Virus record (IMG/VR): IMGVR_UViG_3300042892_000715
Span: 1-37,761 of that record
DNA length: 37,761 bases
Source of the DNA: a virus
Strand: one strand, 5' to 3'
Position numbers and translations under genes: made by a program
Notes under the pieces: model-generated
The model's input: the letters and a program-made list of their open reading frames with translations, nothing else
Told to the model about the DNA's origin: nothing
Databases searched by the model: none
In this document: one piece after another, positions 4,359-32,995 of the stretch
Layout: every line of letters starts with the position of its first letter
Numbering within the stretch: the stretch's first letter is position 1

Positions 4359-4367
4359 TTATATTTG
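4338..4367 (+). promoter_or_regulatory. Promoter of the tmRNA gene
   Basis: TATATTTG at 4360-4367 matches the Bacteroidota -7 element exactly. ATTG at 4338-4341 is a weak -33 element (18-nt spacer). The tmRNA's first base is 11 nt downstream, which allows a short 5' leader for RNase P to remove. Confidence 0.6.
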
Positions 4368-4377
4368 TATTCTATAT

Positions 4378-4819
4378 GGGGGTGACAGGAATAGACAGGA
4401 TGATTAAAGAGTAAAGCAACAAGCAGTGGGATGAATGGTATACCACTATAAAATGTACATTCAAGCTATAACAGGCAACAATAACGAAGCGAAAGTTGTT
4501 TCTCTAGGAGCAATGACTTTCAATGATGCAATCGCAATGGTATCTAATACTGTTGAGTTCGAATTAGCAGCATAGTGTTAAGGTTTAGATTTGTACCTTA
4601 AACAAATGCACGAAGACAGTTATGGGTATAGACTTTAAACGAACCTTTTGGTGGATTTCAACCTAACCAGTTGAGCCTTTTACTAATCAAGTAGAGAACC
4701 GTGAGTTGAGGTGTGTTTACATGCTATAAACGAGCAAACGTCATACTACTAGATTAAAGCTTGTACAATTGTTTTATGTCTGACATGTTTGGACGGGGAT
4801 TCGAATTCCCCCACCTCCA
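4378..4819 (+). ncRNA. ssrA: tmRNA (ssrA) with an unusually long tag frame
   Basis: tmRNA frees stalled ribosomes: it is charged with alanine, enters the A site and provides a short reading frame whose product marks the protein for proteolysis. The ends pair as GGGGGUG (4378-4384) with CACCUCC (4812-4818), keeping the alanine-identity G3-U70 wobble, then discriminator A. A T-arm GGGGATTCGAATTCCCC and a 5' stretch GTGACAGGAATAGACAGG match the conserved tRNA-like domain. The tag frame probably starts at GGC 4474 (base 97 of the RNA, near E. coli's 90) and reads GNNNEAKVV...EFELAA to TAG 4573-4575: 33 residues against 8-15 commonly. A helix TTAAGGT/ACCTTAA follows the tag stop. CCA is not encoded (CTCA), so it must be added. 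It has its own promoter and terminator. Confidence 0.92.
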
Positions 4820-4853
4820 CTCAATTATGATTGATTGATGATTAGTGTTTATT

Positions 4854-4888
4854 AACCAGGTAGAATTAAGTTTCTATCTGGTTTTTTT
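4854..4888 (+). terminator. Rho-independent terminator of the tmRNA
   Basis: AACCAGGTAGAA (4854-4865) pairs with TTCTATCTGGTT (4872-4883) over 12 bp with one G-U, and a run of seven T follows (4882-4888). It sits 35 nt after the tmRNA 3' end and before the ATG of the next gene, which makes an upstream GTG start for that gene unlikely. Confidence 0.85.
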
Positions 4889-4898
4889 ATTTAAAGAA

Positions 4899-5117: not shown

Positions 5118-6482
5118 ATGAATAAACAAAGATTTAATGTAGGTGACAAGGTCACTTATAAAAGCAGTAATGACTGTCATCATAAAGATAGGAGCACAGG
5201 ATATTATTATGGAGGAGATAATCAAGGAGGATTTGTAGGAACTATAACAGAGGTTAACTATTATAATGAATCTCATGACTGTTATAAAATAGAAGTTACA
5301 TCCAGACATGGTTGGGATTTCTCAATGTTAGAACGTGAATTCTTAGAATATGATCAAGAAGTTACATTAAAACATCAATTTAAAATAGGAGATGTTGTTT
5401 GTGGTCATGTTAATTCTTCTAAAGTTGGCACAATTATAGGATTTTCAAAAGATGGATTACGTTGCATGGTTGAAGGTTGGAGAGGTGGACATCATGGTGA
5501 TAATGGTTCTGATTATTGGTACGATCATGAAGGTGAGCCTGTTGAATATTATAAGGGTAATGATAGATACTATTTAGCCATCAATGAAATACAAAAAGCT
5601 CCTGTTACACAAGTTCCTGCTAAACAAGAATCATTAGTAGGTAGAACAATCAGATTTAATAGAACAGTTTCACATTGCGCTGAGCAAGGTGATTGTTATG
5701 TTGTTTTAGAAGATACAGAAGATGCTGCAGATGCACTTAACTTAAAAGGTTATGGTACCTTTGATAGAGATAGACTTGTCAATGGAGATTGTGAATTAAT
5801 GCCTAAAGGATGGGTTGAAGAGAAAGATTTAGTATTAGGTTTTTGTGAAATAGGAGATATTGTTGTTAGTTTAGAAGCAATGCATGGAGAAAGAGACGAT
5901 GGTGACATGTTTGTAGTGTTAGAAGACTCATCAAAAAAATGTTTGTATTACAAATATAATACCAACTCTACTAGACCAACAACTTGGCGTTTAGCAACAT
6001 TAGATGAATCACAACGTTTTCACGAAGGTGTAACTAATATATACAATTCAGACATTTCATCTAAAGATTCTGATTTAAAGTATATGATTGAGATGCAAGA
6101 AGAATGTAAAAGGAGATTTCCTATTGGTTGTAAATACATAGGTGTTGGTAATTCTCATGAGGTGACTTTAATGCAAGATGATTATACATATCGAATTCAT
6201 GAACAAAATATATGGGCACATTCAAGTGAAGGATGTTTATTTAAAAACGGTCAATTTGCAACACTTGTATCACTTCCTGCAACTATATCAGCTTCAATGA
6301 GTATAGGAAAGGATTTCATTCCTCGTCAGGAATTTTATATGTCAGTGGATGCTATTTCTGGTAAGGATTTTCATATATCAAGTAGTTATGTAGAATTATA
6401 TAAATCAAGAGGTAGTCTTGTACATCAAAAATCAATAATAACAAAGCGTAACAAAAAAAGTATTAAATTAGTAATCAAATAA
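5118..6482 (+). CDS. Large protein with repeated SH3-like (KOW/PxVGD-type) modules
   Basis: 454 residues. Short motifs with the pattern F-x-[IV]-GD-x-V recur: FNVGDKVTY at the start, FKIGDVVCG near 90, CEIGDIVVS near 243 and FPIGCKYIG near 335. Each is followed by beta-rich sequence, and the early ones by a GT-I motif (VGTITEV, VGTIIGF), as in SH3-like barrels. A His/Gly-rich loop (HHKDRSTGYYYGGDNQGG) lies near the N terminus and a basic tail (KRNKKSIKLVIK) at the end. SH3-like modules often bind protein or RNA, but no enzyme motif is seen. It directly follows the tmRNA and a small gene, so an RNA or ribosome role is possible but unproved. Confidence 0.6.
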   Translation: MNKQRFNVGDKVTYKSSNDCHHKDRSTGYYYGGDNQGGFVGTITEVNYYNESHDCYKIEVTSRHGWDFSMLEREFLEYDQEVTLKHQFKIGDVVCGHVNSSKVGTIIGFSKDGLRCMVEGWRGGHHGDNGSDYWYDHEGEPVEYYKGNDRYYLAINEIQKAPVTQVPAKQESLVGRTIRFNRTVSHCAEQGDCYVVLEDTEDAADALNLKGYGTFDRDRLVNGDCELMPKGWVEEKDLVLGFCEIGDIVVSLEAMHGERDDGDMFVVLEDSSKKCLYYKYNTNSTRPTTWRLATLDESQRFHEGVTNIYNSDISSKDSDLKYMIEMQEECKRRFPIGCKYIGVGNSHEVTLMQDDYTYRIHEQNIWAHSSEGCLFKNGQFATLVSLPATISASMSIGKDFIPRQEFYMSVDAISGKDFHISSSYVELYKSRGSLVHQKSIITKRNKKSIKLVIK

Positions 6483-7080: not shown

Positions 7081-7196
7081 TTTAGTACTTTAGAAAAAGT
7101 TACTTTTAAGATACTAAAATCACTTGCTTGAAGATAAACAAATAACTATGAATTGGTAGATAGGTATGGTTCGATTCCTTCCTAGTCAACAAAAAT

Positions 7197-7313
7197 AGTC
7201 AGGTAGCTCAGTGGTTAAGAGCAGGTGGTGCGGGAAATGTATTGATACCCAATCTATCGGACACAACTAATACAAGTAAAGTGTAAACACAGGTTCGAAT
7301 CTTGTTCTGACTA
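7197..7313 (+). tRNA. tRNA-like element, 117 nt, anticodon arm not canonical
   Basis: The acceptor AGTCAGG (7197-7203) pairs with TCTGACT (7306-7312), discriminator A. The D arm GCTC-AGTGGTTAA-GAGC (7206-7222) and T arm ACAGG-TTCGAAT-CTTGT (7289-7305) are intact. Between them lie 66 nt, against about 23 in a normal tRNA. The only clean hairpin there, TGATA-CCCAATC-TATCG, lacks U33. It may carry an insertion, be decaying, or serve a non-decoding role. CCA is not encoded. Confidence 0.5.
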
Positions 7314-7439: not shown

Positions 7440-7524
7440 AGTCAGGTGGCGGAGTGGTTTAACACAAGGTAAGACATCTCATAGATGGCTCACTTATTCA
7501 CAGGTTCGAATCCTGTCCTGACTA
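7440..7524 (+). tRNA. tRNA-like element, 85 nt, possible CAU anticodon
   Basis: The acceptor AGTCAGG (7440-7446) pairs perfectly with CCTGACT (7517-7523), discriminator A. The T arm ACAGG-TTCGAAT-CCTGT is perfect. The D region GCGGAGTGGTTTAACAC resembles tRNA-Ser/Leu types but its stem is poor. A 7-nt loop CTCATAG between GACAT and ATGGC has U33 and would give anticodon CAU, with one mismatched pair and about 7 nt too many before it. An alternative arm GGTAAG/CTTATT leaves a 19-nt loop. It shares acceptor and T-arm sequence with the element at 7197, so the two look like paralogues. Confidence 0.55.
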
Positions 7525-18715: not shown

Positions 18716-19006
18716 ATGAGAGACTACGATCAAAATCAACCAGTAGCAGAGGAACAAAGAAGTGTTTATGAAGTAACAATGCCAGTAGAATCTATAGATA
18801 TTCAAAAGAGAGAGGTTCGTCCAACACAAGACTATTTAAGAGATTATGAAATCTCTATTAGATTCTTAAGTTTAGGATGCATAGTTAGAATAGGATGTAA
18901 AGAAATAGCATTTGCTTCAACAGCAGAAGCAATGGGAGAAGTTAATGATTATGTTAACAATCCAGAATCTTCAATACAGAAATATAACAAATTATTCAAT
19001 AAATAA
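18716..19006 (+). CDS. Phage protein of the replication block (96 aa)
   Basis: An acidic N terminus (MRDYDQNQPVAEEQRSVYEV) then YEISIRFLSLGCIVRIGCKE and IAFASTAEAMGEVNDYVNNP. The RFLSxGCIVRxGCKEIAF segment is one I recall from related phages next to the ATPase and the single-stranded-DNA-binding protein. No activity is known. Confidence 0.7.
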   Translation: MRDYDQNQPVAEEQRSVYEVTMPVESIDIQKREVRPTQDYLRDYEISIRFLSLGCIVRIGCKEIAFASTAEAMGEVNDYVNNPESSIQKYNKLFNK

Positions 19007-19028
19007 AAACAATTTAAATTAGAAAACA

Positions 19029-19901
19029 ATGAGTTCAATAGGTGGAAAGAAAAGAGAATCTAGTAGTAATGATTCAAGCTTTAGCAAAAAAGTAGGTTTA
19101 TTTGAGGCAAATGTAGTTGCTATTAATCCTGATGCAGAAGAGTATAAAGAAATCTTAGGTATGGAATTGAAAGAAGATTCTAAAGCCTTGGATTATCTTG
19201 GTAAGAGTCAAGATGGTAACACAAATTTACGTGTTGATATTTGGTTAGAACAAGTTAAGACAGGAGATAAATTCAAAGCTACATTCTTCTTAGAAGATAA
19301 GGTTAAAGAGAACAAAGATCAAACTAAGAAGCAGTATATTAACGCTGTAGGAACTACATCATGGGCTGATGATCCTAATAATTTGCCAGAATGGTTCTCT
19401 AAAAGAGAATATCGTCCAGCATTTATTGGAGAAGATGATTTTTATGGTTTCTTGAAAACATGGTTAGGTAATCTTGATTATAGAGATGCTGACACTACGT
19501 TACAAGTTGACTGGAAGAAGATGATGAGAGGTAACTTGAATGATCTTAAATCTCAAATCAATGGTGAATGGTCTACAAATATTGTAGCTCTTGCTACTAT
19601 TAAGACTGTTATCAAAGATGACGAGATTAAAGAATATCAAAACATGTATACAAAAGCATTCTTACCTGCATTTTCTCTAAGACAATTCAGACTTGTAGAC
19701 TATAAGAATGACAAAGTGTTAGATGGTTTACGTAGTAAGAAAGCAAAAGACTTAAAGCCTCATGAGAAGTTTGTAGTTAATGTAACAGGAGAATATGGTT
19801 CTAAAGACTATTTCACTCTTACAGACATTAAAGAATACAATGCTGATGATAATTTAGTTTCTTCAGATGCTGTACTTTCAGATGATGGTGCTGACTATTA
19901 G
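19029..19901 (+). CDS. Probable single-stranded-DNA-binding protein
   Basis: 290 residues, no enzyme motif. A Ser-rich basic start (MSSIGGKKRESSSNDSSFSK) leads to LFEANVVAINPDAEEYKEIL and LRVDIWLEQVKTGDKFKATF, a beta-barrel-like pattern, then aromatic-rich segments (WADDPNNLPEWFSKREYRPA, AFLPAFSLRQFRL). The C terminus is acidic (ADDNLVSSDAVLSDDGADY), as in proteins that recruit partners by an acidic tail. Position between the ATPase and the primase, a terminator right after it and the tail fit an SSB, but no OB-fold motif is decisive. Confidence 0.55.
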   Translation: MSSIGGKKRESSSNDSSFSKKVGLFEANVVAINPDAEEYKEILGMELKEDSKALDYLGKSQDGNTNLRVDIWLEQVKTGDKFKATFFLEDKVKENKDQTKKQYINAVGTTSWADDPNNLPEWFSKREYRPAFIGEDDFYGFLKTWLGNLDYRDADTTLQVDWKKMMRGNLNDLKSQINGEWSTNIVALATIKTVIKDDEIKEYQNMYTKAFLPAFSLRQFRLVDYKNDKVLDGLRSKKAKDLKPHEKFVVNVTGEYGSKDYFTLTDIKEYNADDNLVSSDAVLSDDGADY

Positions 19902-31101: not shown

Positions 31102-31123
31102 TTTAAAAAATTTATAAAACACA

Positions 31124-32995
31124 ATGGATACAACAACAGATTTAGGATTAGATGCGTTAAGCAAACTGACAGTATTTTCGAAATATGCGAAATACATGCC
31201 AGCATTAAAAAGAAGAGAAACATGGGATGAAATTGTTGACAGATATGTGGCAATGATGGTTAAGAAATATCCCCATTTAGAAGAAGCAATTCACAAGAGT
31301 GCTGAAATGATTAGAGACAAGAAGGTGTTACCTTCTATGAGAGCTCTACAGTTTGCAGGTCCAGCAGCTGAAGTGAATAATGCACGCATTTACAACTGTT
31401 GTTATTTACCAATTGATAGTCTTCACAGTTTCTCTGAGACAATGTTCTTATTGTTAGGTGGAACAGGTGTAGGTTATTCTGTACAGAATCATCACGTAGA
31501 ACAATTACCAGCTATCAAGAGACAAGAAAAGTATAAGATGAGAAACTATCTTATAGAAGATTCTATCATGGGATGGGCTGATGCTGTTAAGGTGTTAATG
31601 AAGTTTTACTTTGAAGGTGGATACAAACCTAAGTTTGACTTTAGAGCTATTCGTGAGAAGGGTGCTGAATTAATTACAGCTGGTGGTAAAGCTCCAGGAC
31701 CAGAACCATTAAAACTTTGTCTTTCTCATATAGATGCTATCATGGAGAGAAAGAAAGATGGTGAGAATCTTACATCATTAGAATGTCATGACATTTTATG
31801 CTTCATTGCTAACAGTGTTCTTGCTGGTGGTATTAGAAGAAGTGCAATGATCTGTCTATTTGATCTTGATGATGAAGCTATGATTACATGTAAGTATGGA
31901 TCTTGGTGGGAAACTAATGAACAAAGAGGTAGAAGTAATAACTCTGCTGTATTAAGACGTGGTGAAGTTAGTTTGGAACAATTCAAAGATCTTTGGAAGC
32001 GTATTGAAGCTAGTGGATCTGGAGAACCAGGAATCTATTGGAGTCACAATAAAGATTGGGGAACTAATCCATGTTGTGAAATTGCTCTTAGACCATATCA
32101 ATTCTGTAACTTATGTGAGGTGAATGTAAGTAATGTAGAGGACCAGACAGATCTTAATGATAGAGTGGCTGTAGCTTCATTCTTTGGCACCCTACAGTCA
32201 GGTTTCTTTGACTTCCACTATCTTAGACCTATTTGGGCTAAAACTACGCAGAAGGACGCATTACTAGGTATAGGAATGACTGGTATTGGTTCAGGAGAAA
32301 TCTTGAAATACAATCTAGAAATTGCTGCTAATACAGCTAAGGTTGTAAACTCTATGATCTCTGCACAAATTGGAACTAATGAAGCAGCCAGACTTACATG
32401 TATTAAACCTTCAGGTACAACATCATTGGTGTTAGGTACTGCCAGTGGTATACATGCATGGCATAATGACTACTATCTTAGAACAATGCGTTTCAATAAG
32501 AATGAAGACATAGCTGTATACTTGATGATTAATCATCCAGAACTATGCGAAGATGATGTTCTTCGTCCTACAGATACTGTATGTGTACGTATTCCTGTTA
32601 AGGCTCCAGAAGGATCTATATACAGAACAGAAACAGCTATTGATACATTAGAGCGTGTTAAGAGATTCTCTTTAGAATGGATTAAACCTGGACACATCAA
32701 TGGTGATAACACACATAATGTTAGTGCTACAGTTTCTATTCTAGAAGATGGTTGGAAAGAAGTGGGTGATTGGATGTGGGAGAATAGAGAAGTGTACAAT
32801 GGCCTATCTGTATTACCACACTTTGGTGGAAGTTACATGCAAGCACCATTTGAAGACATTACAAAAGAAAGATATGAAGAACTTGTTTCTCATTTAAAAA
32901 ATGTAGATCTTCGTAATGTTGTTGAACAAAGTGATTCAGTAGACTTTGGTCAAGTTGCAGCTTGTGCAGGAAATGAATGTGAAGTTAATATTTAA
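31124..32995 (+). CDS. nrdJ: Class II (B12-dependent) ribonucleotide reductase
   Basis: Reduces ribonucleotides to deoxyribonucleotides by a thiyl radical made with adenosylcobalamin. NPCCEI at 315-320 supplies the radical Cys317 and Glu319. Cys328, 11 residues on, and Cys92/Cys93 (YNCC) supply the reducing pair, with the same C408/E410/C419 spacing as the Lactobacillus leichmannii enzyme. The C-terminal CAGNEC (Cys614, Cys619) is the thioredoxin-reducible shuttle pair. LLLGGTGVGYS and KPSGTTSLVLGTASGIHAWH are family signatures. It has 623 residues against 739 in L. leichmannii, so some insertions are missing. No small-subunit gene is nearby, as expected for class II. A thioredoxin gene lies at 36621. 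Confidence 0.9.
   Translation: MDTTTDLGLDALSKLTVFSKYAKYMPALKRRETWDEIVDRYVAMMVKKYPHLEEAIHKSAEMIRDKKVLPSMRALQFAGPAAEVNNARIYNCCYLPIDSLHSFSETMFLLLGGTGVGYSVQNHHVEQLPAIKRQEKYKMRNYLIEDSIMGWADAVKVLMKFYFEGGYKPKFDFRAIREKGAELITAGGKAPGPEPLKLCLSHIDAIMERKKDGENLTSLECHDILCFIANSVLAGGIRRSAMICLFDLDDEAMITCKYGSWWETNEQRGRSNNSAVLRRGEVSLEQFKDLWKRIEASGSGEPGIYWSHNKDWGTNPCCEIALRPYQFCNLCEVNVSNVEDQTDLNDRVAVASFFGTLQSGFFDFHYLRPIWAKTTQKDALLGIGMTGIGSGEILKYNLEIAANTAKVVNSMISAQIGTNEAARLTCIKPSGTTSLVLGTASGIHAWHNDYYLRTMRFNKNEDIAVYLMINHPELCEDDVLRPTDTVCVRIPVKAPEGSIYRTETAIDTLERVKRFSLEWIKPGHINGDNTHNVSATVSILEDGWKEVGDWMWENREVYNGLSVLPHFGGSYMQAPFEDITKERYEELVSHLKNVDLRNVVEQSDSVDFGQVAACAGNECEVNI

Follow-up and report, generated by a model that had tools for sequence, protein, structure and literature searches.

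Can a phage tmRNA carry a tag of 33 residues that is read as protein over its whole length and, if so, what would the additional residues do? The 37,761-nt stretch of viral DNA analyzed here (IMG/VR record IMGVR_UViG_3300042892_000715; hereafter, the window) raises this question. Tags of tmRNAs are usually treated as a fixed degron of about 10 residues, and 10 residues is the commonest tag length overall (PMC11915505). A sequence-only reading of the window had recognized a tmRNA with a far longer open frame. It had also proposed that this frame could be translated directly from an upstream ATG.

The Locus Encodes a tmRNA

The Rfam covariance model RF00023 matched window positions 4378 to 4822 on the + strand along model positions 1 to 374 and scored 73.4 bits (gathering threshold, 47; E = 7e-27). 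Together with a G3·U70 pair and a regular T arm, this match bears out the assignment of the locus as a tmRNA. ARAGORN made zero tRNA and zero tmRNA calls across the whole window, so routine annotation by ARAGORN would miss this phage tmRNA. The features of the locus are as follows.

4360 to 4367, + strand: promoter-like site TATATTTG, starting 18 nt upstream of the tmRNA 5' end and fitting TAnnTTTG
4378 to 4819, + strand: tmRNA gene, 442 nt for the mature region excluding CCA (RF00023 match)
4378 to 4384, + strand: 5' strand of the acceptor stem, GGGGGTG, with G3 pairing with U70 at 4816 (covariance alignment and sequence)
4425 to 4463, + strand: pseudoknot 1, with crossing stems S1 (4425-4429/4443-4447) and S2 (4432-4437/4458-4463)
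4453 to 4455, + strand: in-frame ATG inside pseudoknot 1, judged not to be a start codon
4474 to 4572, + strand: tag coding sequence of 33 codons, GNNNEAKVVSLGAMTFNDAIAMVSNTVEFELAA (resume rule, homolog in L523, third-position excess)
4573 to 4575, + strand: tag stop codon TAG (sequence)
4690 to 4750, + strand: structured element where pseudoknot 4 would lie (two-sided changes in 5 of 15 predicted pairs, four sequences)
4795 to 4811, + strand: T arm GGGGA-TTCGAAT-TCCCC, regular (covariance alignment and sequence)
4812 to 4819, + strand: 3' strand of the acceptor stem, CACCTCC (4812-4818), and discriminator A4819; CCA not encoded
4854 to 4890, + strand: intrinsic terminator, a 12-bp stem followed by a T run (one in the region versus a mean of 0.3 in shuffles)

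The acceptor stem comprises 7 bp, including the alanine identity pair G3·U70. In L523, the nearest ortholog with a different sequence, the stem reads GGGCCTG/CAGGTCC, with compensatory changes relative to the window and G3·U70 kept. Pseudoknot 1 also appears to covary. Its stem S1 is AGTGG/CCACT in the window, AGTGA/TCACT in L523 and AGTGC/GCACT in the relative L098, and S2 is TGAATG/CATTCA in the window and TGATAT/ATATCA in L523; this covariation was read by eye from alignments of three sequences.

TAnnTTTG is the −7 consensus of Bacteroidota. The motif is also present at −19 in L523 and at −18 in the relative L524. Since its frequency within the window is at chance level, its shared position alone counts as promoter evidence. 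With this site upstream and the terminator downstream, the tmRNA gene seems to be transcribed as a unit of its own.

Two tRNA-like genes at window positions 7197 to 7313 and 7440 to 7524 scored above the Rfam cut-off and were likewise missed by ARAGORN. In the first of them, about 61 nt separate the D arm from the T arm, perhaps because of an intron or decay. A T-arm-like sequence lies near 7164 to 7189.

A Resume Codon at GGC 4474 Gives a 33-Residue Tag

In the RF00023 covariance alignment, GGC 4474 occupies the usual tag-start position, and not one late in the frame. According to an experimentally derived rule, the resume codon lies 3 nt after a conserved UA (UA-NNN-G; PMC2481249). The window sequence, TAACA followed by GGC, satisfies this rule, as does every tag-bearing relative listed. 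In the window, L523 and L098 alike, 10 nt separate stem S2 of pseudoknot 1 from the resume codon. Because the alignment, the rule and the constant spacing agree, we take GGC 4474 as the resume codon, as had been expected from the sequence alone, and the tag is therefore 33 residues long.

The tag starts with a short polar head akin to host GENN and ends in EFELAA, a degron end of the hydrophobic-AA type; about 24 extra residues lie between its head and the Ala-Ala end. An open frame of 33 codons has a chance probability of 5-9% in first-order Markov models and by itself is weak evidence. The chance of a frame of 21-40 codons that also ends in Ala-Ala is at most about 5e-5.

The proposal of a separate 40-residue peptide that starts at ATG 4453 is not supported. 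The ATG is in frame with the tag, and L098 keeps the MYIQ segment that follows from it, the only relative to have it in common with the window. The codon is located inside pseudoknot 1, both stems of which covary, and it has no equivalent in L090, L093, L095, L099, L413, L089, L092, L096 or L523. Moreover, the L089 group and the L090/L093/L095 groups have a stop a few codons upstream of the resume codon. We consider a separate peptide very improbable.

Relatives Carry Long Tags under Protein-Level Constraint

The window DNA polymerase has relatives at 65-79% identity on contigs and on near-complete genomes that measure about 115 kb. Of the 50 records first searched among them, 13 carry a tmRNA over the cut-off, including L003 (a near-identical copy of the window) and L100 (in which the tag region is lost). 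One further carrier came from the remaining polymerase relatives and three were reached via ribonucleotide-reductase relatives. The RF00023 scores of the relatives' tmRNAs are modest (58-99 bits). About 7 of the 16 clade records longer than 100 kb have a tmRNA, and this patchy distribution marks it as an accessory gene.

Tag frames stay open in the relatives with an intact tag; they encode 23-38 residues and end in Ala-Ala in nearly all cases. The tag of L523 is GKNTETKVVALGAMTFEDAISMVSQDTLQLAA (32 residues), that of L098 DNKSTFSFEDAMSFVGADLAVAA (23 residues), that of L090 and L093 DNKVISLDVNQVNANMSKVFSLINSNVEELEMAA (34 residues) and that of L095 GKNTSRVVALGANAQIEANMNKVFSLISEDVVIVGLAA (38 residues). 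Tags of 27 residues were read in L089, L092, L096 and L112, one of 26 in L088 and one of 38 in L522. L524 has a 23-residue tag, DEMSTMTFDDLMAFVGADEATFA, with the sole end other than Ala-Ala among the tags of the polymerase and ribonucleotide-reductase relatives.

The sequence at L100 1501-1719 (G003; 219 nt) is near-identical to the L098 tmRNA minus the tag and the neighbouring region. The missing part may have been deleted in nature or lost in assembly.

Differences between tags fall preferentially on third codon positions (28/17/52 over the three positions in six chosen pairs; chi-square P = 5e-5). Synonymous exceeded nonsynonymous divergence between the tags of the window and L523 (pS 0.47, pN 0.26), L374 and L413 (pS 0.55, pN 0.20) and L357 and L363 (pS 0.25, pN 0.02). 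The pooled pN/pS of 0.46 indicates constraint, but moderate constraint. In 14 close pairs, the tag contained zero alignment gaps, versus 3-40 gap columns elsewhere in the tmRNA, and in 8 of the 14 it was significantly more conserved than the remaining RNA. The third-position excess, the gap-free tags and the tag conservation together make it most likely that the entire tag is translated. The 33-codon frame to TAG pointed out by the sequence-only reading is thus present and appears conserved as protein in relatives, in contrast to the 9-residue tags of Flavobacteriaceae hosts.

These data bear on the reading that the long frame arose by neutral drift, with ribosome release alone under selection and a tag sequence that hardly matters. 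The 5-9% chance of such a frame would be in keeping with drift, as would the patchy occurrence of the tmRNA across the clade and the observation that ribosome release alone suffices in a phage plating assay (PMC2481249). Drift does not account for the third-position excess and the lower pN than pS in most of the informative pairs, for tags free of gaps while the remaining RNA has many, for the stronger conservation of the tag in 8 of 14 close pairs, or for the Ala-Ala end in nearly all relatives. These comparisons largely refute neutral drift, which we regard as improbable. As possible uses of the tag, the sequence-only reading had put forward redirected protein degradation, a functional peptide added to stalled products, or continued ribosome rescue during infection. 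The conserved Ala-Ala end makes a degradation signal that has been kept likelier than a purely functional peptide.

Another possibility is a short tag (GNNN...ELAA) that results when a segment of the 99-nt frame is spliced out as a mini-intron or bypassed in a translational hop. The head and tail of the tag do resemble the host tag GENNYALAA. The supposed insert, however, shows codon-position bias and residues conserved between the window and L523, and its length of about 75 nt is far below that of the known tmRNA group I introns, which interrupt the T loop and have mean lengths of about 293-414 bp (PMC11915505). A removed segment is hardly credible on these grounds.

Tag Cassettes Appear to Be Exchanged

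Comparison of the L089 and L092 tmRNAs shows 4 differences at 333 aligned sites outside the tag but 19 at 81 sites inside it (Fisher P = 2.5e-11). The L092 tag resembles the L088 tag (GEAILAS, I or L, then FA). This pattern looks like replacement of the tag as a cassette by recombination, and the pooled pN/pS is compatible with constraint inside groups of tags combined with replacement between groups.

Some tag segments recur. The tags of the window, L523, L095, L374 and relatives have a conserved core, [KR]VV[AS]LGA, in common. A segment consisting of F or A, then S and hydrophobic residues also recurs, followed by an acidic residue and AxAA. The window and L523 tags share KVV[AS]LGAMTF[NE]DAI[AS]MVS.

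A Proposed Role for the Extended Tag

We propose that the locus encodes a stand-alone phage tmRNA that is most likely charged with alanine and works with host SmpB to enter stalled ribosomes. Translation would then resume at GGC 4474, and the nascent chain would gain Ala plus all 33 tag residues, an extended degron of the Clp type. ClpX would read the Ala-Ala end and direct the tagged chain to Clp degradation, which would put the removal of stalled products and the reuse of ribosomes during infection under phage control. We consider this reading as a whole likely. Its least certain step is the contribution of the insert, which may lengthen the degron with mostly flexible residues and so offer Clp more to grip or an extra contact site.

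Several observations fit this proposal. Terminal Ala-Ala is the main determinant for ClpXP, and ClpX pulls degrons farther into its channel before unfolding when they are longer (PMC7652416); a longer flexible degron is therefore the simplest reading of the insert. No SmpB gene was found in 30 of the 31 tmRNA carriers searched, and a ClpP gene was absent from all 27 carriers searched, so that host factors would be needed. On the other side stand the modest RF00023 scores, the patchy occurrence of the tmRNA, the moderate strength of the constraint and a host assignment drawn from relatives. AlphaFold2 predicted for the tag a low-confidence short helix at residues 16-24 (mean pLDDT 66, pTM 0.25), and this low confidence gives no positive structural clue to the role of the insert.

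The main rival for the role of the insert leaves the core of this explanation unchanged and refines the degron. The insert would be a specific docking motif for a phage adaptor, a membrane protease or another receptor, by which tagged proteins are redirected. The [KR]VV[AS]LGA core with the recurring (F/A)S-hydrophobic segment would fit such a motif, as would the exchange of the tag as a cassette (L089 versus L092) and the presence of different long-tag groups in different phages. The strong sequence divergence between groups and the lack of a confident predicted structure argue against it, and neither a tag-like protein nor a partner was found in the phage contigs examined. We regard a docking motif as possible but somewhat doubtful, and favour the longer Clp-type degron.

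Four other candidates were rejected. A folded mini-domain does not fit the low AlphaFold2 confidence (pTM 0.25), and an amphipathic helix does not fit a hydrophobic moment that is not above shuffles (KS P = 0.18). A search for mimicry of another phage protein gave no convincing match among 16,661 ORFs of phage contigs. SmpB or ClpP supplied by the phage was absent in the carriers searched, save for SmpB in G098. In this viral contig, a tmRNA at 18915-19313 with a 21-aa tag adjoins an SmpB gene at 19419-19826, the only such case among the 31 searched.

An RNA Element Occupies the Position of Pseudoknot 4

At the position of pseudoknot 4, the window tmRNA contains a structured element of about 60 nt. 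It has the invariant core AGAGAACCGTNAGTTGNG ... TATAAACGAGCAAACGTCATACT, with about 40 invariant positions, and its outer stem and inner hairpin covary. The corresponding tmRNA site holds a different insert in L523 and none in L098. The element also occurs outside tmRNAs, near tRNA arrays in the Cellulophaga phages phi4:1 and phi17:2 and beside tRNA genes in two further IMG/VR contigs. Copies lie at L004 9740-9817, L005 1410-1490 and L006 4428-4510. No Rfam family covered window positions 4690 to 4750 at E ≤ 10, and a search for the exact pattern in 296 genomes from the host order gave no match. Pseudoknots of tmRNA are known to be replaceable (PMC2481249), and the element seems to be a rare phage RNA module that replaced a pseudoknot.

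The window tmRNA thus has G3·U70, the T arm, pseudoknot 1, the UA-NNN-G rule and the Ala-Ala end in common with the standard one-piece bacterial tmRNA. It differs in its 33-residue tag, its modest covariance score and a pseudoknot-4 site that holds an element also found outside tmRNAs.

Long Tags in Phages of Flavobacterium and Beyond

Judging from its relatives, the phage probably infects Flavobacterium or a near relative. A tmRNA over the cut-off was detected in 113 of 120 genomes from the family to which Flavobacterium croceum (G133) belongs, and all 26 Flavobacteriaceae host tags read are 9 residues long and GENNYALAA-like, unlike the 33-residue window tag.

Cultured phages also carry long tags. 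The Flavobacterium psychrophilum phages Fpv2, Fpv20, FpV21 and FPSV (genus Fipvunavirus) have a 35-residue tag, GNTNNSVVSLEDNAQVEANMNMAFSLIREDVAVAA, in a tmRNA scoring 58.2 bits with RF00023. This tag has a VVSL segment in common with the window tag and is nearer to the L369/L374 group than to the window. In tblastn searches, the L374 tag found a matching place in 29 Flavobacterium phage records; the window tag had no match in phage records. In the two annotated records opened, L413 (Fpv20) and L414 (FPSV-S29), the tmRNA site at 1411-1825 is without an annotated feature.

Two precedents qualify the earlier statement that tags are usually around 10 residues; long tags are indeed unusual, but not unprecedented. 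The Bxz1-type mycobacteriophage ET08 has an annotated tmRNA for which we read, via RF00023, a 25-residue tag, ATDTDATVTDAEIEAFFAEEAAALV. This tag is long like that of the window, but it comes from a different phage and host, ends in ALV and not LAA, and shows no resemblance by inspection. The ssrA tag of Mesoplasma florum is longer than that of Escherichia coli (PMC9382460), and tags of the Mollicute type end in AFA instead of Ala-Ala (PMC3985003, PMC9382460). Because Mesoplasma florum lacks ClpXP, its tag is recognized by Lon, whereas the window tag keeps Ala-Ala (ELAA). The open-licence literature yielded no description of a tmRNA in Flavobacterium phages and none that treats the long tags of phages as a class. 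Long phage tags are thus already known from the Bxz1 type (25 aa), and what is new here is the conserved 33-residue variety of Flavobacterium phages.

We also scanned IMG/VR with a pattern of acceptor stem and T arm that made no use of the tag. Among the matches listed, in a sample that includes related contigs and is no census, 27 standard-form tmRNAs had a resolved tag, which was at least 21 residues long in 17. The long tags among these matches belong to several phage tmRNA sequence groups without evident relation.

Phages of the Flavobacterium type thus have tags of 23-38 residues, with signs of protein-level selection and cassette swaps, against 9 residues in the host family. This suggests that phages have reshaped a quality-control label for their own purposes. 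A bolder and rather speculative extension, which we hold to be unlikely on present evidence, is that phages have repeatedly made the tag an exchangeable module of 20-38 residues for specific targeting beyond a Clp degron, with phage-run labelling of every stalled protein. If this were true, trans-translation would become a labelling system run by the phage in the infected cell. Since cultured phages with long tags exist, the question of why phages carry their own tmRNA is directly testable.

Two further kinds of loci were noticed. About half of the acceptor/T-arm loci among the matches listed (e.g., L113, L125 and L143) have no 5' half upstream and are perhaps permuted two-piece phage tmRNAs. 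In addition, five matches of 78-84 nt over the tmRNA cut-off were detected in viral contigs (G102 58147-58224, G123 5803-5886, G126 6298-6378, G266 5913-5994 and G268 31111-31192); they look like tmRNAs consisting of the tRNA-like domain only, a kind reported for mycobacteriophage DS6A.
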